From an uncultured bacterium (GTDB lineage Bacteria > Cyanobacteriota > Vampirovibrionia > Gastranaerophilales > Gastranaerophilaceae): a DNA stretch of 48,074 nucleotides. The translations under genes were made by a program, and so were the position numbers. Positions 924-47,650 of the stretch are shown piece by piece. How positions within the stretch are numbered: the first letter of the stretch is position 1; each line of letters starts with the position of its first letter. Below the pieces are notes generated by a model. That model saw only the letters and a program-made list of their open reading frames with translations. It was not told where the DNA came from and ran no database searches. The stretch spans positions 1-48,074 of the forward strand of contig CAMTMK010000014.1 of assembly GCA_947073645.1 (NCBI GenBank), read 5' to 3'.

Positions 924-1133
924 TCAATTAAATTTCAATTCTAACGCGATTCTCATGTTGCAATATTCTTGTGTCGAATACTTCTTGACCAACACAACCT
1001 TGTGATAAACATTGCATTTATCACCCAACTCTGCTATAATTTTTTTGTCAAAGGGTTCCAGAGTCTGAACATTGACGACATTTTTATATAGGGAAATTAT
1101 ACATGATATATTATTTGTAGGTTTTCTGTCCAT
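924..1133 (-). CDS. Possible small ORF downstream of the broken prepilin gene
   Basis: A 69-residue frame starts at an ATG inside the last codons of the broken prepilin gene (23-base overlap) and runs to TAA-free sequence ending at 924. The composition (lysine and charged residues, ending LVKKYSTQEYCNMRIALELK) is not unlike a real protein. There is no ribosome binding site and no recognised family. It may be a chance frame or the remnant of a further gene. Low confidence. Confidence 0.2.
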   Translation of the reverse strand: MDRKPTNNISCIISLYKNVVNVQTLEPFDKKIIAELGDKCNVYHKVVLVKKYSTQEYCNMRIALELKFN

Positions 1134-1924
1134 CCCAGCTTAATTTTTCAGGACAGTGAAGGTAATCTAAGTTTTCATTTTGTAGTGCCCAGGCTGTGCA
1201 AGTTCCACCATTGTTATGTACTGGGCTATAACTACTTGTTCCTATACATATTTTAAAGTTTTCTATATTATGGTCATTTTTCATACCCATTGGAGTTATT
1301 GTGTTTTGATAAAATGTGAAACCAAATATATCATATCCGTCTTTGTTTGGACCTTTTGCACCGTTAAGGTTAACGTATATTCTTCCGCATTTATACATAT
1401 ATCTGTCGTGTGCACTGCTTAAATTGCTTACAGGATATTTGCACCAAAGACTTGCATAATCTCCTATAACAGTTTTGATTTTTATTACTGTACCATCTGC
1501 GAGGTAAATTGTTGGATTTTGAGTATTGAATTCGTTGCGGTTAAATAACTTATTATTTTATATATCAACATAGTCAGGCATTGCGCATTCTTTTGAATTG
1601 CCTTTTTCACAATATTTAATGTAATTAAAATATTGTTTCATTATATTGTTAATAGCATTATCCTGTTCTGCTTGTTGATTTCGTATAATTTCTTCTGTAG
1701 TCCAAGTATTGATGTCGCCATGTTCGGCTATAGCTGTGTTGAATGCAGTATTCAGTATGCTGTAAACCTTTTTTAATTTAACAATTTGTGCTCGTTCTCG
1801 GTGTTTTTGAATAAGCGAAGGAATAGTAAGAGCACATACAACTCCTATAATCCCTAATGTAATCAAGACCTCAGCTAACGTGAAAGCTTCGGGGGGGGGC
1901 ACTTTGAGCTTTTTTATTAAACAT
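1111..1924 (-). pseudogene. Broken type IV prepilin-like gene (C9 tract plus in-frame stop)
   Basis: The remains of a prepilin-like gene with the N-terminal core AFTLAEVLITLGIIGVV and the C-terminal motif NLNGAKGPNKDGYDIFGF, both shared with the two intact copies at 6676 and 28015. Translation should start at ATG 1924: AGGAG lies 8 bases upstream and overlaps the ricT stop. From that ATG the frame is lost at a run of nine C, ending after 17 codons; 8 or 11 C would join it to the pilin core. A second lesion is an in-frame TAA at 1558-1560. Beyond it the same frame continues without interruption (NPTIYLADGTVIKI, matching the DGT motif of the other copies). The gene directly follows ricT and could be cotranscribed with it. 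A GTG at 1902 inside the tract could in principle start the core but lacks a ribosome binding site. Confidence 0.8.
1891..1899. repeat. Poly-G/C tract (9 nt) at the start of the prepilin pseudogene
   Basis: Nine consecutive G on the plus strand read as C9 in the gene, 24 coding bases plus one G after its ATG. The tract sits inside a 22-base segment (CAAAGTG, C9, GAAGCT) that is flanked by a repeated AAGCT. Without this segment the leader would read MFNKKAFTLAEVL, a normal prepilin leader. The tract therefore looks like an insertion that makes the frame depend on its length. Confidence 0.75.
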
Positions 1925-6675: not shown

Positions 6676-7371
6676 TTACCACCAAGGATAGTGTTTTTCA
6701 ATTTTCCAACCGTCTTTCATAATAATAGTACTGCATCCCATTCCAACATATCCCTGATATCCTGAAATTACGCCTTTTGCAGGGCAGAGATTTTTACCTT
6801 CCAAAATCTCATCTACTGTTTTAGTATCTCCAGAAGAAGAAATTATATTTGGCTTAGCTTTAGACAAAGTAAATACAAATACATCTCTCCCAATTCTATT
6901 GGGTCCTTTAACCCCGTTTAAATCAACAATGATATAGAGAGCATTATACATTGCTGAATAATTAAAAAAATTCATAAAGATTAAAAATGTACCATCAGGT
7001 AGGATATATGGACCTTTTGAAAGTCCACTTGTCCAAAATTGTGAAGCATCATTACCATTAGATGCCATAATTTTATATGATGTACGGATAAGGTTTATTC
7101 TGTTTTTCTTATCATCTATGACTTTTAAGTATGGAATTAAATAGTTTACTTCAGGTTCACCATTATCAATATTTTCCCAATTAGATAAATCTCCATTTTC
7201 AAGTATGGATTTTTGCAAGGCTTGATTTAAAACAGAGTAAGTTTTTTTTAATTGGTTTACAGTAACATGCTTTTGATAATTTGAAATTAATGTTGGCATT
7301 GTAATTGTTGACACTACTCCTAAAATGCCTAATGTTATCAATATTTCTGATAAAGTAAAAGCTTTATTCAA
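6676..7371 (-). CDS. Type IV prepilin-like protein
   Basis: The 231-residue protein begins MNKAFTLSEILITLGILGVV, a short positive leader and the hydrophobic helix of type IV pilins and pseudopilins; cleavage by prepilin peptidase is expected before FTLSE, with the conserved glutamate at mature position 5. The soluble part holds LPDGTFLIF and VDLNGVKGPNRIGRDVF, shared with the copies at 1111 and 28015. Two cysteines near the end (NLCPAKG, GMGCST) may form a disulfide. The ribosome binding site GGAGG is 8 bases upstream. It stands alone, back to back with an XRE regulator gene. Probably a minor pilin or pseudopilin; assembly genes are not in the window. Confidence 0.88.
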   Translation of the reverse strand: MNKAFTLSEILITLGILGVVSTITMPTLISNYQKHVTVNQLKKTYSVLNQALQKSILENGDLSNWENIDNGEPEVNYLIPYLKVIDDKKNRINLIRTSYKIMASNGNDASQFWTSGLSKGPYILPDGTFLIFMNFFNYSAMYNALYIIVDLNGVKGPNRIGRDVFVFTLSKAKPNIISSSGDTKTVDEILEGKNLCPAKGVISGYQGYVGMGCSTIIMKDGWKIEKHYPWW

Positions 7372-27141: not shown

Positions 27142-28018
27142 AATAGCGATTACTACGGGTGATCCTAACGGGATTGGCGCAGAGATTACGATAAAGGCTT
27201 TGAACAAGCTTTCTCCTGAAAATGTCATATTGATATCTAATCGTAAGGTTTTAGATTTTTATGGAAAACTAAATAAGGATTATGAGATAATTGAAATTCC
27301 TTATGATGTTGAAGTTGCGCCGGGGAAAATTACAAAAGAAGCGGGCGAATTTTCATTCCAATCAGTGAAAAAAGCCTGTCAAATAGGAGCAAAAGCTATA
27401 GTTACCGCTCCCGTTGCTAAAAACGCATTATATCTTGCAGGACATAAATTTAACGGGCAGACTGAAATTTTACAAAAATATCTGGCGCGTGATGGACAGC
27501 TCGCCGAAATGCTTTTTGTTGCAGGCGGTTTTAGAGTTTTGCTTTTGACGCGTCATGTTGCCTTGAAAGAAATTTCTTTATCAAAAGAAATGGTTGTTGA
27601 GAAAATTTCTAATTTAAAAAACTTTTTTGTTTCGCATCTTGGAATAAAAGAGCCAAAATTTGCACTGTGTGCGTTTAATCCTCACGCGGGCGAGGATGGA
27701 ATCTTAGGACGTGAGGAAATTGAAATTTTACAGCCTGCGGTTGATAAGTTGCGTGCGTGCGGGGTAAATATTACAAATCCGCTTCCTGCTGATACTTTGT
27801 TTGTAAAAGCTCTCGATTATGACTGCTGTATTGCAAACTATCACGATCAGGGGTTAATCCCGATTAAAACAGTTGCCGGTGATAAGACTGTTAATATGAC
27901 AATCGGTTTGGATATAATAAGAACCTCACCGGGACATGGAACTGCATTTGATATTGCAGGGAAAAACATTGCGGATGAAACAGGCATGATAGAAGCGATA
28001 AAAGCTGTATTAGACTAA
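27134..28018 (+). CDS. pdxA: 4-hydroxythreonine-4-phosphate dehydrogenase (PdxA/PdxA2)
   Basis: NAD-dependent oxidation of 4-hydroxythreonine 4-phosphate in pyridoxal phosphate synthesis, or of a threonate/erythronate 4-phosphate for PdxA2. The 294-residue protein is somewhat shorter than the E. coli enzyme. Motifs are TTGDPNGIGAE (7-17), GHKFNGQTEIL (H104, substrate), TRHVALKEI, NYHDQGLIP (H237) and SPGHGTAFDIAG (H268); the last three supply metal ligands. It overlaps the kinase gene by 8 bases, which favours a linked kinase-dehydrogenase pathway. Confidence 0.9.
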   Translation: MNKIAITTGDPNGIGAEITIKALNKLSPENVILISNRKVLDFYGKLNKDYEIIEIPYDVEVAPGKITKEAGEFSFQSVKKACQIGAKAIVTAPVAKNALYLAGHKFNGQTEILQKYLARDGQLAEMLFVAGGFRVLLLTRHVALKEISLSKEMVVEKISNLKNFFVSHLGIKEPKFALCAFNPHAGEDGILGREEIEILQPAVDKLRACGVNITNPLPADTLFVKALDYDCCIANYHDQGLIPIKTVAGDKTVNMTIGLDIIRTSPGHGTAFDIAGKNIADETGMIEAIKAVLD

Positions 28019-28701
28019 AATTTATAATCAGATTGCAACTGCCAGTTATCATATTGAAATAGAGCTCCACAATATGCACCCGATTTAGTTTTGTTACACC
28101 CATGACCTGCACCGTTTAGGAGTGTGTTTCTTGGTAATCCATGCCCATAAAAATACACCCCCGCTACTTTAATATTATGAAAACTGTCATTAAATGCTCC
28201 TGGAGTTATGGTTAGAACAAAGTTATCAATACCATATTTGTCCGGTCTTTTATTACCATTTACATCACAATAAATATGTAAATGTTTATTGTCTTGTTTT
28301 CTGAAAGCTATGTAAGTACCGTCAGCAAGTTGAATTTTATAAAAGGATGATGTTTTTATTTGCTCTTCGTATGTTCCATTTAATCCGTATATAATTCCGT
28401 TAGAATTCCAACAACCGTTAGAAGTTTTACAGTTTTTAGTAATATTTAAATTTTTCAAAAGATAAGTTTCAACAAACTGTTGCAAATTTAAATCCCAGTT
28501 CCAATATTGGAGTTCACCATTTTCAATAGTAGTTTGATTGATATTTTGAGAAAATATTGAATATAATTTTTTAGCTCTAGATATATTTACTTCTCTTTGA
28601 TGTGTAGAGATAAGTGTAGGTATTGTAATTGCAGAAACAACACCTATAATCCCTAGAGTTATTAAAATTTCTGCTAAAGTAAAAGCGGTTTTATAATTCA
28701 T
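28015..28701 (-). CDS. Type IV prepilin-like protein
   Basis: A 228-residue relative of the genes at 6676 and 1111. It begins MNYKTAFTLAEILITLGIIGVV, with cleavage expected before FTLAE. The soluble domain has IQLADGTYIAF and the motif CDVNGNKRPDKYGIDNFVLTI, the form of which (acidic residue, NG, K, P, G, D) suggests a conserved loop, perhaps for calcium. Five cysteines (NCKTSNGCW, HIYCD, HGCNK, YCGA) may form disulfides. AGGAG is 7 bases upstream. The gene ends by overlapping pdxA by 4 bases on the other strand and is divergent from an XRE regulator. Confidence 0.88.
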   Translation of the reverse strand: MNYKTAFTLAEILITLGIIGVVSAITIPTLISTHQREVNISRAKKLYSIFSQNINQTTIENGELQYWNWDLNLQQFVETYLLKNLNITKNCKTSNGCWNSNGIIYGLNGTYEEQIKTSSFYKIQLADGTYIAFRKQDNKHLHIYCDVNGNKRPDKYGIDNFVLTITPGAFNDSFHNIKVAGVYFYGHGLPRNTLLNGAGHGCNKTKSGAYCGALFQYDNWQLQSDYKF

Positions 28702-46684: not shown

Positions 46685-47650
46685 ATGTTACCGAAAATAG
46701 ATCCAGTAAATTATGAGCGTTGTTACCCCAAAAGATTAAAAAAGATTTTTCAGTCTAATCTAAATATGCGGACTTATGATAAATTTGTTCCGAATGTCGG
46801 GGGGGGGGCTATTGTAGGCAATATTCCGCCTGAACTTATCAGGATGTTTCCTGTGCAAAATCGAGGGCATAATATAAAAAATTTTCAAAATGTTTTGGGA
46901 GATATAAGCAGATATATTAGAGTATCAGCTGAAAAATTAAAGCGTACACGCGGGTTTGGTATGCTAAATACTATTACATATGGGAAATCGGATGCTATTT
47001 TAAATTGGGAAAAAGATGTTAATTCTGTTTTTAATGCTTGTCTGAAAAGGTTCCCAAATGTTCCGATGACAGGGAATTTAGAATATATTGACCATGGTGT
47101 TGCAGGAAAGGTTTTTCGTCTTTCAATTTTTGATAAAGATGGGAATAAAGTTATGCATGATAAGGCTTTAAAAGTCTTTCATAATGTGACTTTTGGAGCC
47201 CCTGAAGTTAAAGACTTGCATGGTAATTATGCAGAAGCTAATTTTTGGACATATTTAAAACGTGCAGCAGGTCATCCTCTTGATAAAACTCAATTTACAA
47301 AACATTATATTTCCGATTTGCATAGCGGTTATACATTAACTGAATTTATTGATGAAAAAATAACTAAAACAACGGCAAAAATTGATTTTCAGAATTTGTT
47401 CAGAGTAAAGTATATTGATGGACATCACAATCCTCGTTATTATAAGAAAATATATGATGTGGGAGGGTTTCAAAAAAGTTCAAAATTTATGGATGATAAA
47501 ATTGTCTTGAGGTATTTTAAAAAGCTCTTTTTCAGAAGTAAAAAAGAGCTTCCGGAAGTTCTTGCCAGATATGAAGCTCTTGCTCAAAATCCTAAAACTC
47601 CGCATAGAGATAAAATTCAAAGAGCAATCAGCTTATTTAAGAAGGAGTAA
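46685..47650 (+). CDS. Unknown protein with possible degenerate kinase-like fold and a G10 tract
   Basis: The 321-residue protein has no signal peptide and no ribosome binding site at its ATG. Codons 39-41 are a run of ten G (GGG GGG GGG G). From residue 130 some blocks recall protein or aminoglycoside kinases: a glycine loop (YIDHGVAGKVFRL), a lysine in ALKVF (K163), a glutamate in the next helix (E184), a hinge-like YTLTEFID, and DGHHN with later DVGG (D245, N249, D258). The match is loose and several kinase features are missing, so this is an inference. It is divergent from trkA and its end overlaps the YggT gene by 18 bases on the opposite strand. Confidence 0.7.
   Translation: MLPKIDPVNYERCYPKRLKKIFQSNLNMRTYDKFVPNVGGGAIVGNIPPELIRMFPVQNRGHNIKNFQNVLGDISRYIRVSAEKLKRTRGFGMLNTITYGKSDAILNWEKDVNSVFNACLKRFPNVPMTGNLEYIDHGVAGKVFRLSIFDKDGNKVMHDKALKVFHNVTFGAPEVKDLHGNYAEANFWTYLKRAAGHPLDKTQFTKHYISDLHSGYTLTEFIDEKITKTTAKIDFQNLFRVKYIDGHHNPRYYKKIYDVGGFQKSSKFMDDKIVLRYFKKLFFRSKKELPEVLARYEALAQNPKTPHRDKIQRAISLFKKE
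46799..46808. repeat. Poly-G tract (10 nt) inside the unknown gene
   Basis: Ten G in a row, read in frame as three glycine codons and the first base of GCT. With 9 G the frame stops after three further codons (CTA TTG TAG); with 11 G it stops after about ten (ends TCC GCC TGA). Only the present length, or changes by three, gives the full protein. Confidence 0.85.

Follow-up and report, generated by a model that had tools for sequence, protein, structure and literature searches.

Poly-G tracts with a conserved flanking motif and replication-strand polarity as probable phase-variation switches, mostly of type IV pilin-like genes, in a Gastranaerophilales-like genome

The window, a stretch of 48,074 nucleotides, is contig 14 of a Gastranaerophilales-like genome of 1.71 Mb in 37 contigs (G000, the home genome), and contains two long G tracts, one of them in the target gene of this analysis, with the following features:

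46685..47650, + strand: ORF for a protein of 321 aa with an ATG start, conserved in the genus, which carries the G10 tract (the target gene).
46799..46808, + strand: G10 tract, codons 39-41 of the 321-codon ORF, in frame.
46796..46819, + strand: the tract with its flanks, GTC-G10-CTATTGTAGGC, a motif copy that diverges from the genus motif YTC-G10-CANTYTnnRGC.
1891..1899, + strand: second tract, G9 on the + strand (read as C9 by a pilin gene of the - strand), with flanks TTC...CACTTTGAGC.
1108..1924, - strand: type IV pilin-like gene with prepilin motif EAFTLAEVLITLGIIGVV and the C9 tract after codon 8.

Translation of altered tract lengths gives a product of 43 aa with nine Gs and of 49 aa with eleven, so that the target protein is truncated 2-8 codons past the tract, and the frame is restored with 7 or 13 Gs; the original prediction, that the G10 tract is in frame and that both one-base changes truncate the protein within about 12 codons, was correct. 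The protein matched no Pfam or NCBIfam family. Its AlphaFold model has a mean pLDDT of 67, and the top PDB matches of a fold search are kinases with a non-significant E of about 0.15, a weak hint of a kinase N-lobe-like fold. Clear orthologues (43-53% identity, adjoining trkA where checked) are present in 21 other species of the genus, and the earlier description of the gene as accessory holds only insofar as the two nearest relatives have no such gene at this locus. No G/C run longer than 5 occurs within the gene in any of the 21 orthologues, and thus the tract is peculiar to its own species among those compared. The usual orthologue sequence is ...PxMKNAIVGN, versus PNVGGGAIVGN in the target. 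A recent insertion of the tract was considered and rejected, because the orthologues, at only about 50% identity, are too divergent for the route from MKN to VGGG to be traced. The target is atypical among tract genes, being a non-pilin gene that is in frame (ON) at ten Gs and shares its tract with no orthologue.

The second tract, which had been named as a C9 tract at 1891 and counted as a second such locus in 48 kb, was located as described. The pilin-like gene that carries it is out of frame (OFF) at C9 and has an internal TAA in the pilin frame, after PDYVDI, and therefore looks like a decaying copy; by itself it scores below the Pfam cut-off. Two further pilin-like genes of the window (6676-7371 and 28015-28701, both on the - strand) are tract-free and have very short leaders (MNKAFTLSEILITLG and MNYKTAFTLAEILITLG); the tract is an optional extension of the pilin leader.

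Matches to G7 number seven in the window against 0.47 expected, which exceeds every shuffle, and all seven lie inside the two tracts. The home genome is placed in the Gastranaerophilales/Melainabacteria group by its TrkA, to which named records match at up to 96%. The analysis was extended to stretches around the tracts of this and other genomes, together with some control stretches; comparisons between species used one genome per species, G010 being that of a close relative (sister species) of the home genome. Under a second-order Markov model fitted with the tracts excluded, 0.85 runs of at least 8 and 0.02 runs of at least 10 are expected in 1.71 Mb, versus 67 and 54 found in the home genome (4 of length 8, 9 of length 9, 42 of length 10, 10 of length 11 and 2 of length 12). 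A genome-wide list of this kind had been proposed as a check of the original prediction; it confirms that a run of ten Gs is very unlikely by chance, strongly supports the suggestion of a general device in this genome (the runs are mostly in surface genes), and does not show the tracts to be as frequent as chance would make them. A simple repeat beyond chance in or beside a gene is characteristic of contingency loci, as is an altered reading frame upon a one-base change, and both are seen here, the latter at the level of the frame.

Fifty-three of the 67 home-genome tracts lie about 20-50 bases past the ATG of type IV pilin-like genes, directly before the prepilin site. Assignment of these 53 genes to the type IV pilins follows from a prepilin N-methylation motif (FTLAEVLITLGIIGVV-type) behind a short leader; there are 51 N_methyl matches in the home genome, and such pilin-like matches range from 9 to 146 per genome inside one genus. 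The leader of pilin genes on the G strand, once in frame, reads like ...NVGGGGTLGFTLAEV, and that of pilin genes on the C strand like ...KLRIAPPPEGFTLAEV. At five loci (L036, L042, L043, L055, L064) a palindromic spacer (CAAGCGTAGCCGCTTGACCCG..., read KRSRLTRHIGF) stands between tract and pilin, in sense and antisense genes, and resembles a second leader module. The non-pilin tract genes encode a GT2/TupA-ATPgrasp fusion, in which the tract falls within the interdomain linker, a GT-D glycosyltransferase, a hexapeptide transferase, and proteins without assigned function, among them the target. The polysaccharide genes belong to the usual class of contingency genes, and together with the 53 pilin-like genes they give the concentration in surface-structure genes that is typical of contingency loci.

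The consensus on the G strand around the tracts is YTC-G10-CANTYTnnRGC, and these flanks are conserved on that strand whether the gene is a sense, an antisense or a non-pilin one. With a weight matrix derived from the sense pilin tracts, antisense tracts score +5.6 and non-pilin tracts +6.1, versus -16.8 for background and -20.2 for antisense tracts read in the direction of the gene. In antisense leaders, the nucleotides AAAGCTCAGAATTGCC are found in more than one frame, and encode KLRIA in one case and KAQNC in another. Because the flanks hold across gene direction and reading frame, the motif is constrained as DNA and not as protein. Compared within one genome, sense and antisense pilins share 71-85% identity from just past the tract, and differ in leader and tract. 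The constraint on DNA and the unlike leaders and tracts of otherwise similar pairs would also be expected if the motif were a site for some other process, such as pilin recombination, gene conversion or binding of a fork-related protein, that crosses reading frames by chance. This explanation is considered unlikely: it does not predict that the tracts are concentrated in surface genes just past start codons, no enzyme was linked to the motif, reverse transcriptase is absent from the home genome and G026, and the full motif is unmatched in viral contigs. Two specific candidates were rejected, namely an element of DGR or retron type written by reverse transcriptase (no RVT_1 match in G000 or G026) and a phage-borne motif (viral contigs gave no exact match to it). 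Motif copies are common in most of the genus, numbering about 20-52 in the richer genomes, and are rare in the rest of the order; the congeners G022 and G002 have many pilins and almost no motif copies. A control pattern that reads the motif backward (TMAC...G9...Y) is enriched in G157, G079, G062 and G174 (genera g22 and g24), and so G tracts with flanks of a mirror type seem to exist in other genera of the family.

The G run sits on the G-rich replication strand whatever the direction of the gene. Within contigs, changes of G strand number 4 among 126 adjacent tract pairs (1 of 43 in G000, 1 of 39 in G010, 2 of 44 in G026), and at the strand switches in G026 C1, G026 C2 and G027 C3 the GC3 skew, corrected for gene direction, flips sign in the same interval. 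This skew agrees in sign with 115 of 117 tract-bearing blocks in four genomes; it was chosen as the reference because dnaA, rejected as a marker of the origin, is not at the strand switches in G026 or G027. The G-rich strand is presumably the leading strand of replication, a label that is the weakest part of the polarity claim because dnaA, being elsewhere, does not place the origin, and rpoB and rpoC of the window are coded on the opposite strand. A bias of gene direction was rejected as the cause of polarity, since non-pilin coding is evenly split between the directions (46-53% on the G strand) and pilins lie in either, 88 being sense and 49 antisense relative to the G strand. Polarity by replication strand fits a process based on replication, and flanks and polarity together suggest a replication-linked reader of the motif.

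The tracts are nearly fixed in length, being exactly 10 in 38 of 39 cases in G027, 16 of 16 in G026 and 38 of 45 in G010. Pilins that need 8 or 11 Gs for their frame (n mod 3 = 2) number 40 of 53 in G000, 31 of 35 in G010, 15 of 16 in G026 and 28 of 30 in G027; pilins are nearly always one G short of their frame and are thus OFF by default. Across four genomes 16 of 134 pilins are ON and 118 are OFF (p = 2e-8 against the one third expected, a guide only, since related genes are not independent); ON and OFF frames are mixed across loci, as in contingency loci, with a strong bias to OFF. Most non-pilin genes whose tract is internal are ON at ten Gs. In sense genes, the flank supplies a stop in the OFF frame, which is within 6 codons in 97% of them, versus 44% for the third frame. 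The near-fixed length counts against slippage and leaves room for programmed recoding, by which the ten Gs would act as an unchanging slippery site, and a -1 frameshift of the ribosome, or slippage in transcription that adds one base, would make a set fraction of pilin in every cell. The fixed length, the frames that are one base short (above all in G026, G027 and G010) and the nearby stop of the unshifted frame all favor this explanation, and the layout of a -1 frameshift (a fixed slippery run, a second ORF in the -1 frame and a near 0-frame stop) fits most pilins. It does not fit the pilins of the home genome that have nine Gs and are ON at 8 or 11, which a single -1 shift would not rescue; some tract genes are already ON in the DNA; and a translational process would be blind to the replication strand, whereas the tracts have almost perfect polarity and occur as both G and C runs. 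Programmed recoding is accordingly judged improbable.

Orthologous tracts of the home genome and its sister species G010 are mostly ten and ten, at 78-86% identity, and a few are ten versus eleven. Orthologues that differ include a C11 tract that is ON at L071 versus a C10 tract that is OFF at L313, and ten versus eleven at L062. One pair of orthologous pilins with ten Gs each is ON in G000 (L047:3131) and OFF in G010 (L318:5087) because of an indel in the leader and not a change of the tract. Sites orthologous to the tracts at L058:9442 and L076:3003 are tract-free in G010 (L251, L299) and G012 (L252) and have motif-like flanks (TTCAGGAGGTCTAATTCCAAGC; GTCGGTAGTGGGGCAC); they are either birthplaces of tracts or decayed tracts. 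The L076 site differs from sister-species GGTAGTGGGG by three T/A-to-G changes, which is the kind of difference expected if tracts are mainly by-products of leading-strand hotspots that lengthen G runs by converting GnT to Gn+1. Such hotspots of point mutation next to G3-G5 exceed 1000-fold, depend on leading-strand orientation and are strongest with a 3' C (PMC12344412). They may be how tracts arise and set a precedent of dependence on the strand. A 5' C gives the weakest hotspot, yet C is directly 5' of the run in 54 of 67 tracts, and mutational growth leaves unexplained the conservation of positions +3 to +12, the length of ten and the concentration in pilins; concentration in surface genes argues against it as the sole cause, and as the main explanation it is very improbable.

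The tracts are probably devices of slipped-strand phase variation that are strand-polarised and motif-bound, have a preferred length of ten and are used dozens of times per genome, a reading drawn from sequence and favored somewhat above an even chance. Each G10 tract would be one copy of a module, YTC-G10-CANTYTnnRGC, on the G-rich and presumably leading strand, in which slippage by one base at replication would shift the reading frame. For most pilins, ten Gs would be OFF and eleven or eight Gs ON, so that any one pilin would be made by a small minority of the cells; for a few non-pilin genes, including the target, ten Gs would mostly be ON and slippage would switch the protein off. Slippage would have to occur at useful rates in cells, strand polarity may tune its rate or direction, and expression of the tract genes should be heterogeneous between cells. 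The original prediction of slipped-strand phase variation survives as the best reading, lengths differing among paralogues (8-12) and between sister-species orthologues; it had missed the strand polarity, the flanking motif, the near-fixed length of ten and the fact that pilins are set to OFF by default. The conserved flanks are left unexplained by slippage alone and count against it, as does the presence of MutS, found in 54 of the 58 genomes searched, among them the home genome, on which grounds loss of mismatch repair was rejected as the cause of the tracts. It is tentatively proposed, as something possible but short of an even chance, that the motif is a dedicated, strand-polarised switch module with exactly ten Gs, re-oriented in place for genes of the opposite strand, which, as a slippage system on the scale of the genome, keeps the whole type IV pilin repertoire default-OFF by one base and has flanks recognised by the replication machinery or by a protein that binds them.

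With about 65 runs on the same replication strand, mostly at the starts of pilus genes, a very large repertoire of surface proteins is probably under the control of one short motif. Studies of phase variation usually take one locus at a time in pathogens, and here an uncultured gut lineage seemingly has dozens of pilin-like genes per genome behind one motif, which offers a view of how a commensal diversifies its surface. The orientation of the motif follows replication and not transcription, a natural experiment on strand control of homopolymer slippage. For annotators, the dozens of seemingly frameshifted pilins in these MAGs are probably switches and not pseudogenes or assembly errors.

A search of open literature gave no paper on phase variation in Gastranaerophilales. 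In Neisseria, pilC is switched ON and OFF by slippage of a poly-G tract in the region of the signal peptide; the pilin tracts described here are likewise in the leader of pilus-related genes, and belong to a large repertoire of pilins themselves instead of one or two adhesin genes. The poly-G/C loci of Campylobacter jejuni are not known to have polarity or a flanking motif. That species has about 27-29 G/C tracts of at least 8 in or near surface-modification genes, which switch frame by length, and the lengths vary even among clonal isolates (PMC5135748). The tracts described here resemble these in being many, in surface-related genes and with the frame set by length, and differ in a length that is nearly fixed at ten. 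As at GnT hotspots, the behavior of G runs depends on orientation to the replication fork, but here G10 tracts are maintained and the 5' flank preference is opposite. The sortase-dependent pili of Bifidobacterium breve UCC2003 are OFF at the annotated G tract and ON after slippage, as found by deep sequencing, and slippage in the gut turns the pili on (PMC9187656). Both cases concern a gut commensal with an intragenic G tract of 10-11 after the part encoding the secretion signal, OFF at the annotated length, and slippage by one base that joins ORFs, an effect on frame that is here read from the sequence. B. breve has two loci for sortase pili, whereas here there are dozens of type IV pilin-like genes, a conserved flanking motif, polarity by replication strand, and C tracts in genes of the opposite strand; by analogy, the pilin tracts appear very close in principle to those of the B. 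breve pili.
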